The translations under genes were made by a program, and so were the position numbers. A DNA stretch of 34,440 bases from Defluviitaleaceae bacterium (GTDB lineage: Bacteria; Bacillota; Clostridia; Lachnospirales; WQUN01): NCBI GenBank assembly GCA_009788085.1, contig WQSB01000009.1, positions 1-34,440 on the forward strand, written 5' to 3'. Below are positions 25,912 through 34,272 of the stretch, piece by piece. The notes beneath the pieces were generated by a model. The model saw only the letters and a list, made by a program, of their open reading frames with translations, made no database searches and was not told the DNA's origin. The stretch's first letter is position 1. The number at the start of each line of letters is the position of its first letter.

Positions 25912-26979
25912 CTAAACTGCGCAATCGCAAGGCATAAGGCTTATTTGTCCCGGCAGCACCTGCGCCCACCTATTTGATGGCTCATTCCGCTTGCGACCTG
26001 CTTTGTACTTCCGGTATGCCCGCGTGTATTCGATACTGTCCCCAAAGATGTTCATAGCGGCGATGTAAAGGTCTGGTTCGTGTTGCCGCAACATCTCAAG
26101 CTCCTGTTCGAATCTACTACCAAACGGACAAGCAGCGCATCCTGTACGCTCACAGCCGTAAACGCTGTACGCTCGGCTATGGGTTACTCCAAAGCATTCG
26201 TCATACGCCTGCTTGTCTTTATCTGAAAAGTAGAAGAGTGGAAAATGTTGCGCTCCGTACTTCCCTTCGTTAAAACAACTCTTATACGCCGTCCCGCGCG
26301 CCCCACCCTCAGCCTTTCTTATTCCCATGAGGGTCAAATCTGCATTTACTCTCTTTGCATATGCCTGCGCGGGTTTGATTTTTCCATAAGTACAACATTT
26401 ACTGCTGATTTTGAATTGCGGCGGGTTTTCGTGTATAAACTCTTTTAAATAGGTGTTTTTACTTATATTGAATCTACTTTTTGCGCCCCACTCATTGCAC
26501 CACCAACGTAACGCCGACTTGCACTTTGGGTATTTTTGCAAAAGAACCTCGAAGGAGTCCATTTCCCATTGAAAATTGTGTCGCTGTAGCCTCTCCATGT
26601 ATTCGGCAACCTTTTTACTGAAAAATGGTTGCCCAAACTCTTTACATGCGGCAGGTATACTCTTTTTCGGGTCTGCCGTATCAATCTTGATGCTATACTT
26701 TTTTTCAAGCTCCTTGATGTGGTCTTTTGTTGCCCTCATTTCAAGCCCTGTGTTGTAAAATACATATTTAACTTTTTTTAGCTTGTCAATTTTGTAAACA
26801 AGGTCAAGCATAATATCGCTATCCCACCCGCCTGACACGGCGCAAATAATGTTATCGGGAAATATCATATGGCGGGTTGTTTTGCTAAACGCGCTCATAA
26901 TCGTTTGTGTTGGAGAGGTAAACCAGCATTCCGGAGGGTGGAATATTGTTTCTATTGCATCGCCATAGCTTATACTCAT
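25912..26979 (-). CDS. PAPS-reductase-like ATP pyrophosphatase (DndC-like family)
   Basis: 355 residues from ATG 26979, 5 bp after the methyltransferase stop and behind GGGGGATAGG. The PP-loop motif SGGWDSD lies near residues 49-55 after an NIICAV strand. Later motifs are YVFYNTGLEMRATKDHI, RWWCNEWGAKSRF, a KCCTYGKIKPA Cys region, and the C-terminal GCERTGCAACPFGSR cysteine cluster, possibly for an Fe-S cluster. Such phage proteins belong to the phosphoadenosine phosphosulfate reductase superfamily that includes DndC, used in phosphorothioate DNA modification. DndC identity is not claimed. Confidence 0.82.
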   Translation of the reverse strand: MSISYGDAIETIFHPPECWFTSPTQTIMSAFSKTTRHMIFPDNIICAVSGGWDSDIMLDLVYKIDKLKKVKYVFYNTGLEMRATKDHIKELEKKYSIKIDTADPKKSIPAACKEFGQPFFSKKVAEYMERLQRHNFQWEMDSFEVLLQKYPKCKSALRWWCNEWGAKSRFNISKNTYLKEFIHENPPQFKISSKCCTYGKIKPAQAYAKRVNADLTLMGIRKAEGGARGTAYKSCFNEGKYGAQHFPLFYFSDKDKQAYDECFGVTHSRAYSVYGCERTGCAACPFGSRFEQELEMLRQHEPDLYIAAMNIFGDSIEYTRAYRKYKAGRKRNEPSNRWAQVLPGQISLMPCDCAV

Positions 26980-26984
26980 TGGCC

Positions 26985-28643
26985 CTATCCCCCTATTTTT
27001 TTCAACTCCGGCAGATTTACCCTTACCAACGCTTCTGCAAAAGGCGGCGGCACGGCATTTCCGCATCGAGCAATTTGTGCAGCCTTAGTGATGGGTTTGC
27101 CGTCGGGTCCTGTTTCTATTGCATAATCCGGCGGGAAGCCCTGTGCGTTAAATAATTCACGCGGTGTGAGCATCCGCAGGCCGATATCGGCAATGGCGTA
27201 TTGCTCTCCGTGGATAGTCACCAGCCCGAAGGTGTCCCTGCTAGTAGCGGTGTGTAGGGATTCCGTGACGGGTTGCCCATCTCCCTGGCCGTAATATTTA
27301 ACCAAGAAAGCGCGAACCTCCCCAAAGTGGCCGGGGGTTGCCGTTATGGTGTTAAGCGGTTCTGTGTTCCCTTGGCACCCACGGGAATAACCATTTCGGA
27401 ATATCGTTAAGTGCGAGGTTACGAGCGCGTTATGGTCAATGGCTGTTACTGTATTGAGGGGCTGCTGTAGTGTGTTGCCGCATCCTTGGTGGCCACCGCT
27501 GTAATACTTGGACATGAATGCCATTACCAGCCCGTAGCGGTTCGCTGCGTCTGCGGTAAGTAATGGATTGCCTGGGTTTTGCCCGCGTACTTCGCGGCCG
27601 GACTGCTCTCCGTGGTATTGGATGAGAGTGGGAGCAACAACTGCCCATTCCGGCCTGGCAAGTATGGTTTTAAGTGGCTTTGATGTGGAGTCTATGTCCT
27701 CACGAAACCCGGAATGGCACTGCATAACATAAGGCGTCACAACTCCATACCCATTCACCGATGTAATCGTGCCCAGCGGCTCACCGCTTCGTTTAGGGGC
27801 ATTGTCGAACTTGAAATCTACAATAAACGGCTCCGGGTTCTCGAATACAAACTTCTGCAAGCCACGCGCAATGCGACGCAGGGTAGTATCAGCCAGGGGC
27901 CGTATGGCACGAAGTCCGTATTTTTTCCATATCTCTTCCGACGTATCGAAAATCGAAGGGCAGGGCAACGTCCAATCGATTATCTCGGCGGCGGTTCGCC
28001 ACGGCCTCAGCTTTCCTGTTTTAACAGCTTCGCTTTTCGGGTCGCCGTGAGTCGGCTTAGGCCAGCGTATGGGCTGCCCATCACACCGGGCGATGAGAAA
28101 GAACCGCTTGCGGATGGTGGGTGCGCCGTAATCACAGGCTTTTAATTCACGGAAATCTACCGCATAGCCGTGATGCCGCAGGGCATTTATAAAACTGTTA
28201 AACGTGCGCCCCGCTTCGCGCTTGTTTGGCTTGCCGTCCACCACCGGCCCCCATGTTTTGAACTCTTCTACGTTTTCAAGGATAATCACTCGCGGCCTAA
28301 CGGTTGCCGCCCACCGCACGGCTACCCATGCAAGCCCACGAATTTCTCTGTTGACAGGCTTGCCGCCCTTGGCTTTAGAGAAGTGTTTGCAATCCGGCGA
28401 GAACCAAGCCAACCCCACGCGCCTCCCCCGTGTGACCTTGCGCGGGTCAACATCCCAAACGCTTTCACAAAAATGTTGAGTATGCGGATGATTAACCTTG
28501 TGCATGGCTATGGCGTCGGGGTCATGGTTAATGGCAATATCCACCGGGCGGCCCGTTGCCAACTCAATGCCGGTGCTTGCACCGCCGCCGCCGGCGAAAT
28601 TGTCAACTATCAGTTCATCAAGTAAAGTCATTTGCACAGGCAT
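26985..28643 (-). CDS. C5 cytosine DNA methyltransferase with repeated recognition region
   Basis: 552 residues from ATG 28643, preceded by AAGGAGG. C5 motifs in order: I (DNFAGGGGASTGIELA, 14-29), IV (AWFSPDCKHFS, with the SPDC cysteine at residue 85), VI (ILENVEEF, 121-128), VIII (APTIRKRFFLIA, 174-185), IX (LTPRELFNAQGFP, 492-504) and X (CGNAVPPPFAEAL, 527 on). Between VIII and IX the target recognition region has six copies of a PL-x-T-x-T...LV pattern about 35 residues apart (288-480). It likely protects phage DNA from host restriction. No cognate nuclease is seen. Confidence 0.9.
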   Translation of the reverse strand: MPVQMTLLDELIVDNFAGGGGASTGIELATGRPVDIAINHDPDAIAMHKVNHPHTQHFCESVWDVDPRKVTRGRRVGLAWFSPDCKHFSKAKGGKPVNREIRGLAWVAVRWAATVRPRVIILENVEEFKTWGPVVDGKPNKREAGRTFNSFINALRHHGYAVDFRELKACDYGAPTIRKRFFLIARCDGQPIRWPKPTHGDPKSEAVKTGKLRPWRTAAEIIDWTLPCPSIFDTSEEIWKKYGLRAIRPLADTTLRRIARGLQKFVFENPEPFIVDFKFDNAPKRSGEPLGTITSVNGYGVVTPYVMQCHSGFREDIDSTSKPLKTILARPEWAVVAPTLIQYHGEQSGREVRGQNPGNPLLTADAANRYGLVMAFMSKYYSGGHQGCGNTLQQPLNTVTAIDHNALVTSHLTIFRNGYSRGCQGNTEPLNTITATPGHFGEVRAFLVKYYGQGDGQPVTESLHTATSRDTFGLVTIHGEQYAIADIGLRMLTPRELFNAQGFPPDYAIETGPDGKPITKAAQIARCGNAVPPPFAEALVRVNLPELKKIGG

Positions 28644-28861
28644 TGCTTTCCTCCTTTTTCCGGACCTGCAATCACATTTTCTGGAGCTTTGCATATGATA
28701 AAGTGTACGAGCATAGGATAAATTGAAAAATCAGAGGTATAAGAAATTAAGTCCATTAGTGGGCCAAACCATAAACGACCGTCTTGAGAATTTTTTGAGG
28801 CGGTTTTTTTAAATGCGTATTGCTTATGACGGTGGGGGAAGACGCGGATTATGCCGTTCAT
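28628..28861 (-). CDS. Small hypothetical protein before the methyltransferase
   Basis: 77 residues from ATG 28861, which shares the TAATG overlap with the upstream stop, a strong coupling sign. The start MNGIIRVFPHRHK resembles short Clostridia phage proteins beginning RVFPRRT; the rest (SQDGRLWFGPLMDLISYTS..., LVHFIICKAPENVI) does not match anything I know. Its end overlaps the methyltransferase start by 16 bp. Confidence 0.55.
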   Translation of the reverse strand: MNGIIRVFPHRHKQYAFKKTASKNSQDGRLWFGPLMDLISYTSDFSIYPMLVHFIICKAPENVIAGPEKGGKQCLCK

Positions 28862-30375: not shown

Positions 30376-30669
30376 TTATTCATCTATTCTTAAACTGACC
30401 CGTCTATTATTACGAAGGTTGGCATTTCCGGTTACTTTTGCCCTCGACATAGGCAATACAGCTATATTTTTTTGGACGCGCTCCATATTGGCGATATCAA
30501 TTTTATAGAGTGCAGCGCGTACCAGTTTCACATTTAATATGCGGCGGCGGCCACTTTGTCGAAATGGTATTTCACCATTTTCGATATGGCTGTCTATCAC
30601 TTTACGGGATATGCCCAAGATTTTTACAGCGTCGTCAATGCTGACCCATTCAGTGGTATGTTTTTCCAT
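30376..30669 (-). CDS. Excisionase-like MerR/HTH_17 DNA-binding protein
   Basis: 97 residues from ATG 30669 behind AAGGAG; upstream in-frame codons lack a ribosome binding site. Residues 5-48 (WVSIDDAVKILGISRKVIDS, then ENGEIPFRQSGRRRILN) form the winged helix typical of excisionases and MerR-like proteins. The remaining half is basic (MERVQKNIAVLPMSRAKV). In this position it could act as Xis or as an early gene regulator. Confidence 0.7.
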   Translation of the reverse strand: MEKHTTEWVSIDDAVKILGISRKVIDSHIENGEIPFRQSGRRRILNVKLVRAALYKIDIANMERVQKNIAVLPMSRAKVTGNANLRNNRRVSLRIDE

Positions 30670-30772
30670 GGCGTTCTCCTTAGATTGTTGTTTTTGTCGT
30701 ATGTTGCCCGCTCTCATCTTCGTATGGTAATATTCAGTCGCCCTTCTGGGCTGTGAAAGGAGCGCGATAACT

Positions 30773-30832
30773 TTGAAAGTGCTTTTTTATTGCCCTGTCC
30801 TAATTAAAGCTGATGCGTGGGGTGAAACATAA
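30773..30832 (+). CDS. 19-aa leader-peptide-like ORF
   Basis: AAAGGAG (30756-30762) lies 10 nt before TTG 30773, which opens MKVLFYCPVLIKADAWGET and then TAA. It is on the + strand, opposite to the early operon, and is followed by the inverted-repeat and terminator region below. A short translated frame before alternative hairpins is the layout of attenuation leaders. The frame is short, so chance cannot be excluded. Confidence 0.35.
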   Translation: MKVLFYCPVLIKADAWGET

Positions 30833-30839
30833 AGCGGAA

Positions 30840-31014
30840 CCCTTAACTGCTAAAGTGACGCGCCTTGTCAAGAAGCGAGTTGTGACGAACTTTCGTGCAA
30901 CGGAGTGATTTCACTGCAATAAGGTTTAGGAATACAAATTGGGGTAAAGACAACCAGCGCGTCACCGTTGGTTGTTTTTGTTTCTGCAAGGCGCATCACT
31001 TTAGCGGTTAAGGG
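30840..31014. repeat. 28-bp long inverted repeat with 119-nt loop
   Basis: The arms 30840-30867 and 30987-31014 are complementary at 26 of 28 positions (CCCTTAACTGCTAAAGTGAC... versus its reverse complement), so RNA from either strand would fold into a very long hairpin. The loop has smaller hairpins (AGTGA/TCACT near 30904-30915) and the + strand terminator at 30950-30983. The right arm ends 8 bp from the stop of the Cro-like gene. Could be a structured RNA, a mini transposable element (no clear target duplication), or a regulatory site. Confidence 0.75.
30950..30983 (+). terminator. Intrinsic terminator inside the long inverted repeat
   Basis: ACAACCAGCG (30950-30959) pairs with CGTTGGTTGT (30966-30975) with one mismatch and a 6-nt loop, followed by TTTTTGTTT. 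The loop side GCGCGTCAC (30957-30965) is exactly complementary to GTGACGCGC in the left arm (30855-30863), so the two pairings exclude each other. Confidence 0.7.
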
Positions 31015-31021
31015 TAAATAT

Positions 31022-31246
31022 TTATGACGCTTCGCCTTGGCGGGTCTGTTGAGGTTTTAGTAATAAATCATCTACAGAGACACCAAGGGCACTTGCGATA
31101 AAAGCAAGAGTATTTATTTGTACGGACTTTTTTCCTGTTTCTACATAATGAATGGCGACACTTGATACACCCGCCTCTTTTCCAAGTTCCGCTTGAGAAA
31201 TGCCAGTATCTTCCCTAAGCTGTTTTATTTTCGCGCCGTTAATCAT
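31022..31246 (-). CDS. Cro-like XRE-family regulator
   Basis: 74 residues, ATG 31246 behind AAGGAGG. A single helix-turn-helix covers the protein: IKQLREDTGISQAELGKEAG, VSSVAIHYVETGKKSVQINT, LAFIASALGVSVDDLL. It is divergent from the larger XRE gene and reads toward the early genes, as Cro does in lambda-like switches. The Cro label is positional. Its promoter contains operator O1. Confidence 0.85.
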   Translation of the reverse strand: MINGAKIKQLREDTGISQAELGKEAGVSSVAIHYVETGKKSVQINTLAFIASALGVSVDDLLLKPQQTRQGEAS

Positions 31247-31353: not shown

Positions 31354-31382
31354 GGTGCATGGGTTTAACTTGGTTATATAAT
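31352..31382 (+). promoter_or_regulatory. Promoter of the large XRE repressor
   Basis: TTGGTG (31352-31357), 17-bp spacer, TATATA (31375-31380); alternatively TATAAT at 31377-31382. Its -10 overlaps the leftward promoter's -10, so the two should compete. The expected start falls in operator O1. Confidence 0.55.
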
Positions 31383-31407
31383 AATAGAGATATCTCTAAT
31401 TTGTCAA
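31378..31407 (-). promoter_or_regulatory. Promoter of the Cro-like gene and early operon
   Basis: A perfect TTGACA (31407-31402) and TATTAT (31383-31378), 18-bp spacer. Operator O1 lies inside the spacer, the expected position for a CI-type block. Confidence 0.75.
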
Positions 31408-31453: not shown

Positions 31454-32212
31454 TTGGTCGAAAGAATTTTTATGCTTATGGAAGAAAGGGGAATATCTGC
31501 GGCGCAATTAACAAAAGAAGTGTCATTGACAAATGGCGTTGTAACACAATGGAAGCAAGGCAAACAAAAGCCTAGTACAGACGCAGTAATAAAAATTGCT
31601 GACTACTTCGGCGTAACGACGGATTACCTATTGAAAGGAATGGAGGCGCAAGTGTGGCATGTAAAAAAAGAAAAGGAGAGTTGCGCTATGGACAAAACAT
31701 CTTATTTTTGCAAAATAAAAATATCTGAAAGACTAAAGGCATTGAGGAAGGAACTCGGGCTAACGATTGATAAGCTAAACGGAGAAATTGAGTTGGTATA
31801 TCCTGATGTTCGATATTTTTCGAAAATGGAGAGAGAGGAATTTTGGGAGGAATGTAATCTTACCGAAGTGGGAGGCAATATATGTAAGCTCGCATTGATA
31901 AATTTTTTTGGATATCCAGATTTATTCATTGAACCTTATAATGTCCCCGAAAAAAAACTTGAAGAAGTATTGCCAACGGATATATCTCTAAGAATAAAAA
32001 TCAAAATGAATGAAAAGGGATATACACCTAAAAATGTAGCTGATAATTTAAGTGTTGACGAAATTAGCGTTATTAGTTGGTCTACTGGTGAACGTATGCC
32101 CAATCAACGTTGTCTGCAATTACTTAATGGTGTATTGGAGCTAGGGGATGATATGATGCGAAAATACGAAACAACAGCTAAATCCAAGAAGGACAATGCC
32201 GTCAACGAATAG
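31454..32212 (+). CDS. XRE-family lysogeny repressor (CI-like)
   Basis: 252 residues from TTG 31454 after GGAGGTGATT. Residues 4-60 are an XRE helix-turn-helix (FMLMEERGISAAQLTKEVSL, VVTQWKQGKQKPSTDAVIKI, ADYFGVTTDYLLKG). Two later segments look like degenerate copies: residues 90-150 (ISERLKALRKELGLTIDKLN) and residues 180-235 (RIKIKMNEKGYTPKNVADNL, then VISWSTGERMPNQRCLQLLN). No LexA-like peptidase domain is present, so induction would need a route other than self-cleavage. Divergent placement next to the Cro-like gene and integrase supports a repressor role. Confidence 0.75.
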   Translation: MVERIFMLMEERGISAAQLTKEVSLTNGVVTQWKQGKQKPSTDAVIKIADYFGVTTDYLLKGMEAQVWHVKKEKESCAMDKTSYFCKIKISERLKALRKELGLTIDKLNGEIELVYPDVRYFSKMEREEFWEECNLTEVGGNICKLALINFFGYPDLFIEPYNVPEKKLEEVLPTDISLRIKIKMNEKGYTPKNVADNLSVDEISVISWSTGERMPNQRCLQLLNGVLELGDDMMRKYETTAKSKKDNAVNE

Positions 32213-32542: not shown

Positions 32543-32833
32543 TTGCAGAATAAGAGATTTACATGGGATGAAAATAAACATAGAGGCAATAGGCGCAAGC
32601 ACGGCGTATCATTTGAAGAAGCCGCTACAGTTTTTGACGATGCCAACGCCCTGTACGAATCTGACCCTGACCATTCAGATTATGAAGATAGATTTATAAT
32701 ATTAGGGTACAGCGAACACGAACGACTACTCCTTGTCTGTCATTGCTACAGGGAAAACGATTCAATTATAAGGATAATTTCAGCAAGAAAAGCAACACGC
32801 GAAGAGCATCAAAAATATGGAGGTGTATCATGA
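32543..32833 (+). CDS. brnT: BrnT-family toxin
   Basis: 96 residues from TTG 32543. BrnT toxins are RelE-fold ribonucleases that inhibit growth until bound by the antitoxin. The pattern is complete: FTWDENKHRGNRRKHGVSFE, EAATVFDD, D-H-S-D-Y-E-D-R-F-I-I-L-G-Y-S, LLLVCHCYRENDSIIRIISA and the RKATREEHQKY end. A TATACT box at 32480-32485 with a poor -35 may be its promoter. It overlaps its partner by 4 bp. Confidence 0.88.
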   Translation: MQNKRFTWDENKHRGNRRKHGVSFEEAATVFDDANALYESDPDHSDYEDRFIILGYSEHERLLLVCHCYRENDSIIRIISARKATREEHQKYGGVS

Positions 32834-33039
32834 GAGACAATTACGAATTTTCAAATGCACGAAAAAATCCTTTTGCCGGAACGTTTAAAGGTGAATATAC
32901 AGTCATTATTGAACGCAACGAGCATAAAGAAGTTGTAAAACTCGACTACAATAAAACACCACCTGCTCGGGAGATTTTGGAAGTTATTCCCAATTCACAT
33001 GAAGTAATTGCGCCACTTAAAAAAGTTTCCAATATTTAG
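32830..33039 (+). CDS. Putative antitoxin partner of BrnT
   Basis: 69 residues from ATG 32830, behind GGAGG and in an ATGA overlap with brnT, the layout of a toxin-antitoxin pair. It begins RDNYEFSNARKNPFAGTFKG, a start seen in small antitoxin-like proteins, then YTVIIERNEHKEVVKLDYNK and REILEVIPNSHEV. The ribbon-helix-helix domain of canonical BrnA is not visible, so the neutralising mode may differ. The antitoxin role is from context. Confidence 0.6.
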   Translation: MRDNYEFSNARKNPFAGTFKGEYTVIIERNEHKEVVKLDYNKTPPAREILEVIPNSHEVIAPLKKVSNI

Positions 33040-33063: not shown

Positions 33064-34272
33064 ATGGCATCAATAAAAAAGCGTGGTGATAACACATACC
33101 AAATAACTGTATCTAATGGCTACGACCGCAACGGCAAGAAGCTGTCAGAGTTCAAGACTGTCACGCTTGACCCCGACATGACCGCGAAGCAACAGGAAAA
33201 AGAAATAGCCCGGATTGCCGCTAAATTTGAGGACGATGTAAAAAGTGGCCGACACCTAGACCAGACAATAACTTTCGAAGGATTTGTTATGCGCTGGCTT
33301 ATTGACCATGGGGAAACGCAGCTTAGAATAAAAACTCTATCCAGCTATCGGTCGGAATTGGAGTCTAAAATACTTCCCGCCATTGGGCATATAAAGATGT
33401 CTAAACTCCAACCCTTACATTTGATAAAGTTCTATGAAAAGTTAAAAGAAGATGGTGTCCGACTGGATGGGAGGCCCGGAAGCTATTCGACCCGCACAAT
33501 AAAATATTGCCATCAGATTATTTCAAGCGTCTTGCAGTCAGCCGTACATTGGCAGGTGTTATCTGATAATGTGGCTAAGCGAGTGAAGCCTCCCAAGGGG
33601 GCGGCCACAGAAAAGAAAAATAATTATTTTGACGAAAAGCAGGCTATAACGTTTCTTAGGTATGTAGAAAATGCACCGTTAAAATATCGCGTACTTATGC
33701 ACATAGCCATATATGGCGGTTTGAGGCTTGAAGAAACATTGCCGTTGATGTGGCAAGATATAGATTTTGTGAACCGCACTATAAACATTAATAAGGTGCT
33801 GGTTTATGTAAATAGAAAGCAACATATTGAGGACGATGCTAAAAATATCAGCTCGACACGGCGCATAACTATTCCGCGACATGTAATTGAGCTACTAAGA
33901 GAACAACGGGCGCAAGTTGATGACGAGAGGGTATTTGACATGCACTATTCAACTCCCGGCCACTGGCTACGTAAAACTATTGACCGCTATAACGCCACAC
34001 ACGAAGAGAAGTTGCCACGGATATCATTTCACGGTTTACGCCATACAAACGCAACACTGCTAATATCGGAGGGGCTTGATATTCGTACCGTATCCGGTCG
34101 CCTCGGGCACAGAGATGCATCAACCACTCTAAATATTTACAGCCATTACATCAAAAGCCGGGATGAAGCTGCATCTGATGCGCTTGAAGGATTGTTGAAC
34201 CATAAAACCGAAAATCTGCCTACTATTTGCCTACTGCCTACTGTTAAAACAAGAAAAAAGAGAACAAAATAG
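33064..34272 (+). CDS. int: Tyrosine recombinase / phage integrase
   Basis: 402 residues from ATG 33064, preceded by AAAAGGGGC; a TTG at 33043 is less likely. N-terminal arm-binding domain (MASIKKRGDNTYQITVSNGY, residues 1-60), SAM-like core-binding domain (residues 65-175), catalytic domain from about 185. Catalytic residues: Arg in YGGLRLEE, His-x-x-Arg in FHGLRHTNAT, His in LGHRDAST, nucleophile Tyr in LNIYSHY. It inserts the phage at the tRNA-Thr gene whose 3' part lies 70 bp downstream. Three TGCCTACT repeats lie in its 3' end. Confidence 0.95.
   Translation: MASIKKRGDNTYQITVSNGYDRNGKKLSEFKTVTLDPDMTAKQQEKEIARIAAKFEDDVKSGRHLDQTITFEGFVMRWLIDHGETQLRIKTLSSYRSELESKILPAIGHIKMSKLQPLHLIKFYEKLKEDGVRLDGRPGSYSTRTIKYCHQIISSVLQSAVHWQVLSDNVAKRVKPPKGAATEKKNNYFDEKQAITFLRYVENAPLKYRVLMHIAIYGGLRLEETLPLMWQDIDFVNRTININKVLVYVNRKQHIEDDAKNISSTRRITIPRHVIELLREQRAQVDDERVFDMHYSTPGHWLRKTIDRYNATHEEKLPRISFHGLRHTNATLLISEGLDIRTVSGRLGHRDASTTLNIYSHYIKSRDEAASDALEGLLNHKTENLPTICLLPTVKTRKKRTK
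34217..34242 (+). repeat. Three TGCCTACT repeats near the attachment site
   Basis: Copies at 34217-34224, 34228-34235 and 34235-34242 lie inside the last codons of the integrase gene. Direct repeats next to an att core are typical of integrase arm-binding sites, but they also encode protein (LPTICLLPT), so this is suggestive only. Confidence 0.4.

Follow-up and report, generated by a model that had tools for sequence, protein, structure and literature searches.

The structured element at positions 30814-30980 (+) of the window, by which we mean the whole stretch of 34,440 nt that was analysed, is on the evidence of its sequence a prophage-borne FuFi-1 RNA (Rfam RF02986). The Rfam covariance-model scan gave it 82.3 bits (gathering score 59.6), and the match spans the full length of the model (1-175). 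The consensus helices of RF02986, including the 3' terminator hairpin, are present in the window, with several pairs flagged as non-standard in the alignment. The window's genome holds a single copy. The original prediction had described a + strand attenuator or structured RNA that is antisense to the early operon; a structured RNA, its strand and its layout were borne out, and the RNA is not of a new kind but belongs to an already known family. The left arm of a 28-bp inverted repeat, a terminator and a 19-codon frame, all noted earlier, are parts of this one RNA unit and hence not independent features. Judged from the sequences of related viruses, FuFi-1 is longer and more elaborate than its Rfam entry. 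Compared with the RF02986 model, the RNA seems to be extended upstream by ~75 nt in the window and by roughly 200 nt in other loci, and the window carries an extra inverted arm beyond the model. In addition, a kissing loop is supported here; the nested structure line of RF02986 cannot display pseudoknots, and we do not claim an oversight by the authors of the family. To our knowledge no function has been assigned to FuFi-1, and a full-text search for the name 'FuFi-1' found no paper in the literature collection covered. With a preferred address, a full-length outline including promoter and 5' domain, and a variable self-complementary loop pair, this orphan motif becomes directly testable.

For the comparison we used 34 distinct loci, the window counted. 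They were gathered from pattern scans of viral and genome contigs, from Rfam scans and from genome searches, and duplicates were merged according to the printed stretches (L012 with the window, L117 with L014, L136 with L131, L138 with L132 and L148 with L143). The Rfam gathering score was passed by 28 of the 34 loci. The six below it (L120, L124, L128, L131, L139 and L144) were retained for their core motif and, where there, for their 5' domain; our own model R1 matches four of them at E 0.002 or better. The pattern matches L140, L141, L142, L145 and L149 have neither an Rfam nor an R1 match and were rejected as chance. As the search patterns were drawn partly from the core and the 5' domain, the conservation of exactly those letters is partly made by the search. 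The loop pairing, the strands A and A' and the gene context played no part in finding the loci. The pattern used for the genome contigs was too loose and returned 101 stretches. Rfam scans of 14 of these gave a single match (L028), and R1 scans of all 101 gave L028 plus the weak matches L034 and L104. By eye, L034 shows a promoter-like box, a Shine-Dalgarno sequence, a frame, the strands A, B and A' and a core, with a loop complement of just 5 nt; it was left out of every tally.

Searches with blastn found no match among named phages (five queries) or plasmids (one query). The Rfam model scored above the cut-off in one of 61 sampled relative genomes, which was the window's own, and in one of 35 genomes of the order of genome G351, which was G351 itself. 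It did so in two of 398 sampled genomes of the phylum, one of them again the window's own, and model R1 in one of 391 genomes of the class (the window's own). Weak matches are lost to strict filters wherever a sample exceeds 40 genomes.

The original prediction had proposed RNA folding with a comparison across related prophages as a check, and this comparison revealed covariation in the core. In alignment A1, which consists of 12 compact relatives, the nested helices and the loop-loop helix together comprise 43 pairs; 96.7% of the cells hold standard pairs and 37 of the pairs show two-sided changes. None of 500 shuffles reached the observed values, and slid versions were 35-43% paired. G-U cells outnumber A-C cells by 51 to 6 in these relatives, and we therefore take the + strand to be the RNA. 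The terminator hairpin with its U-tract (30948-30983, +) was found as predicted and forms in the minimum-energy fold with the loop CGTCAC at 30960-30965; a simple T-run terminator scan did not list it. This hairpin is FuFi-1's own 3' hairpin, and the left arm of the repeat (30840-30867, +) is part of the conserved FuFi-1 core (AACUGC..AAGUGAC).

Hairpin 2 and the terminator hairpin are connected through their loops by a kissing helix (helix 5 in A1); each of its seven pairs shows two-sided changes, and 98.8% of its cells are paired. The window has the same feature, with GUGACG at 30882-30887 (+) facing CGUCAC at 30960-30965; it was derived from the relatives studied here and is not Rfam's. Of the 33 loci whose terminator could be read (all but L139, which is cut off), 29 have at least six contiguous Watson-Crick pairs between the two loops; when loops were combined across loci that differ in them, 71 of 1042 combinations reached this. 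L122 (5 pairs), L132 (4, or 8 with G-U), L124 (5, where the hairpin was probably mis-picked) and L134 (3) fall short, and L134 is a real exception. In six of the 33 loci the terminator was placed by where the model match ends on its 3' side or by an earlier pick; the hairpin chosen for L124 still seems wrong. It is the hairpin-2 loop, and not the left arm, with which the terminator loop has a conserved pairing.

Upstream of the Rfam model most loci have a 5' domain in common, which is composed of a -10-like box, a small hairpin, AAAGGAG, an inner hairpin and a strand B. For the window we propose a promoter at 30704-30733 (+) with TTGCCC at 30704-30709, an 18-nt spacer and an extended -10 box TGG-TAATAT at 30725-30733. 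Most of the 5' domains compared (29 in all) have a -10-like box in the corresponding position; a strict promoter scan did not list the proposed site. We infer that the RNA starts at about 30740. The following elements are a 5' hairpin GCCC/GGGC formed by strands B0 and A (30740-30751, +), the Shine-Dalgarno-like AAAGGAG (30756-30762, +), an inner hairpin GCGC/GUGC with the start codon in its loop (30762-30782, +) and strand B (UUGCCC, 30790-30795, +). Strand B is complementary to A as well as to A' (30819-30826), a later copy just before the core, and can pair back with the former or forward with the latter.

Because the MAFFT alignment A2 misplaced the helices of the 5' domain, we used permutation tests which contrast pairing within the own locus with permuted pairing. 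They cover 30 placed domains (L124, L128, L144 and L146 were left out), with strand positions set via hand-given motifs in five loci (the window, L119, L147, L153 and L157). In these tests, which ignore the relatedness of the loci, the observed pairing was reached by 0 of 10,000 permutations for A:B, by 4 for B:A' and by 2 for the inner hairpin (G-U allowed). The covariation of B0:A is weak, with 447 of 10,000 permutations reaching the observed value. The window's own strands form 4 contiguous Watson-Crick pairs for A:B and 3 for B:A', the latter being longer only with wobbles. When the 5'-domain pattern alone was used, 13 viral contigs matched and all 13 have an adjoining downstream FuFi-1-like core (that of L139 recognised by eye); the 5' domain therefore belongs to the FuFi-1 unit. 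For L124 and L146 the 5' domain of the core looks deleted or replaced, and these loci are natural variants that bear on the role of the domain.

The FuFi-1 region was correctly placed between two - strand genes, the Cro-like HTH_3 gene (31022-31246), which is the first of the early operon, and the excisionase-like HTH_17 gene (30376-30669), which is the next early gene (both identified with Pfam). The first gene on the same strand after the terminator starts at 31454 and encodes a CI-type HTH_3 repressor (31454-32212, +); a tyrosine integrase gene is found at 33064-34272 (+), both supported by Pfam and PHROGs. Transcription from a predicted early promoter (TTGACA-18-TATTAT, 31378-31407, -, 11 of 12 matches) would pass first through cro, next through the FuFi-1 region in antisense and last through the HTH_17 gene; the scan behind this promoter found 3 promoter-like sites, where shuffles give 2.7. 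By gene and promoter layout FuFi-1 is located opposite a lytic transcript in the window, the transcript itself being predicted. Among the 34 loci, 24 have a CI-type HTH gene downstream on the same strand, 18 have a Cro-like HTH gene just downstream on the opposite strand and 18 have a recombinase downstream on the same strand (L125 has one on the other strand as well). These tallies were obtained with our own iterative profile search, using locus-derived seeds and E 1e-4, and the Pfam check covers the window's genes. The CI-side and Cro-side counts indicate that the RNA is usually antisense to the early lytic operon. At seven of the 34 loci, mostly short stretches with little downstream sequence, no tested neighbour was detected. 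At L120 and L154 FuFi-1 adjoins terminase or portal and head genes and not the immunity region.

Several further genes were noted in these surroundings. FuFi-1 of L120 (9100-9450) adjoins terminase, endonuclease-like and tRNA genes, and that of L154 (633-816) has a transcription-regulator gene (phrog_36) on one side and head genes on the other. Between the CI and integrase genes of the window (32543-33039, +) there is a BrnT-type toxin gene (PF04365) and, behind it, a frame of 69 aa, maybe its antitoxin. The early region of the window (25912-28694, -) includes a PAPS-reductase-domain gene adjoining a C-5 cytosine methylase gene. Other Rfam RNAs near FuFi-1 are DUF3800-VII at L152:10083-10163 (-) and 6A at L122:1551-1601 (-).

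Given this position, an effect of FuFi-1 on the lysis-lysogeny decision is plausible. We favour the reading that FuFi-1 acts as a folded antisense RNA on the lysogeny side which damps early transcripts, and assign it a probability of roughly 0.4. An RNA of ~243 nt (30741-30983) would be made in the lysogen from its own promoter. Its transcription would run toward the genes for repressor and integrase and opposite to the early lytic operon, and leaky early transcription would be restrained through convergent transcription and antisense pairing. If the early promoter wins, the early mRNA with its full complement of FuFi-1 would titrate FuFi-1. The switch between A:B and B:A' may set the access of ribosomes to the short frame, with the Shine-Dalgarno sequence either free or covered. 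Specific to the window, read-through past the terminator would allow the 28-bp hairpin to dismantle the FuFi-1 core. Several observations count against the favoured reading: the address of L120 and L154, the seven loci without tested neighbours, L134 without a kissing loop, the weak B0:A covariation, the short A:B and B:A' helices of the window, and two features of the short frame described below, i.e. the missing codon-position signature and the offset of 17. The conserved unpaired motifs of the core also count against it, as they point to a bound partner more than to simple antisense action.

There are precedents for phage antisense RNAs. OOP RNA of the lambdoid phages and STnc6030 of prophage BTP1 are, according to PMC7067206, prophage-encoded RNAs opposite lytic genes, as FuFi-1 appears to be. 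FuFi-1 differs from both in its conserved fold and its kissing loop, and the likeness considered here is one of layout. With the P4 CI RNA and the IsrK locus, as described in PMC4825925, FuFi-1 shares complementary strands that pair alternatively around a short frame in a prophage RNA. There the regulated genes are downstream on the same strand (PMC4825925), whereas FuFi-1 is mostly followed by a gene on the other strand. According to PMC12286853, ROOL and GOLLD are likewise phage or prophage RNAs with kissing loops; they are separate Rfam families, and FuFi-1 is smaller. In L143 a ROOL RNA (281-873, -, 297.6 bits) occurs with tRNA genes on the same viral contig, ~9 kb from FuFi-1, and the two are distinct loci.

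Nearly as likely as the antisense brake, in view of the motifs that are conserved but unpaired and of the two loci beside packaging genes, is a role in trans. FuFi-1 would then act on a target outside the early operon, such as a host protein, the ribosome or another mRNA, and its address would merely ensure expression in the lysogen. The constrained tertiary contact is in line with such a role, and so is the self-contained appearance of FuFi-1 with promoter and terminator. The common address argues against it, as 24 of 34 loci share a position with respect to CI and 18 of 34 with respect to the Cro-like gene, and no co-travelling partner gene was noticed among the six protein families tested.

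The loops take 29 different sequences in 33 loci within an otherwise conserved RNA, and this diversity gave rise to another, rather unlikely reading: the kissing loops could be a self-recognition code and FuFi-1 an RNA-based immunity factor. The loop would pick early transcripts or copies of itself in a multimer, and ribosomes on the short frame would throw the A:B / B:A' switch. Immunity RNAs of the P4 CI type stop transcription of lytic genes by pairing with leader sites on the strand of those genes; FuFi-1 does not fit this type, as the window's lytic genes are on the opposite strand.

The short frame also raises the question of a dual-function RNA with the peptide as functional product, which we consider unlikely. 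As predicted, the window has a 19-codon frame (MKVLFYCPVLIKADAWGET, putative translation) behind a ribosome binding site; it starts with TTG at 30773 and ends with the stop codon at 30830-30832 (30773-30832, +). It is the window's counterpart of a conserved frame of the type M-T-K-L-L-x-L-P. A functional peptide would fit the Shine-Dalgarno-like sequence with an ATG, GTG or TTG start, observed in 30 of the 30 placed 5' domains, and strand B being in frame 0 in 28 of 30. We found no third-codon-position signature, however, and CTTTTG is conserved at all positions. The length varies from 11 to 32 codons and the C-terminal half is variable. One common offset between frame and strand B is seen in 25 of 30 loci, perhaps by descent, and three of the five differing ones are multiples of 3; in the window, frame and strand B are out of register, with an offset of 17 instead of 18. 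Given the lack of a codon-position signature, we regard translation of the short frame as likely and the peptide as unproven. A type I toxin reading, judged by eye from the peptides, was dropped.

The 28-bp inverted repeat is present as described: 26 of the 28 positions in its arms (30840-30867 and 30987-31014, +) can pair, and no other inverted repeat was reported within 30600-31200. The original prediction had named it first, but the comparison shows that it does not define this RNA. The right arm, which lies past the terminator, is matched at 24 or more of 28 positions in 2 of the 34 loci, the window (26) and L135 (24); for the other 32 the best match anywhere on their stretches is 15 to 19 of 28. 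The read-through transcript 30741-31020, which includes both arms, folds far better than shuffles (z -6.81), and the terminated RNA 30741-30983 modestly better (z -2.35). The two-locus repeat is therefore real and strongly folding on read-through, but accessory to FuFi-1. The earlier proposal of an attenuator, in which repeat and terminator form mutually exclusive folds, is improbable. It was drawn from the complementarity between GCGCGTCAC in the terminator loop and the left arm, which we confirmed over 9 nt and which, like the stable read-through fold, would suit an attenuator. The 9-nt complement occurs in the window alone and does not exceed 5 nt in any of the 32 further loci evaluated, so it does not represent a conserved switch; moreover, the next gene (31022-31246) is on the - strand and there is no close same-strand gene after the terminator to attenuate. 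The case of L135 is more favourable to attenuation, as the right arm there overlaps a Shine-Dalgarno-like AAGGGG that precedes an 84-aa frame on the FuFi-1 strand. A MITE or transposon end, suggested by the inverted-repeat geometry, can be dismissed as far as we searched: the arm occurs at 0 mismatches in the window's genome as the two arms at this site and no more, its pattern among viral contigs is limited to L012 (the same prophage as the window) and L135, and the left arm is inside a conserved RNA. The 84-aa frame of L135 is located directly behind the right arm, at 285-539 relative to the core, and has a hydrophobic C-terminal stretch.
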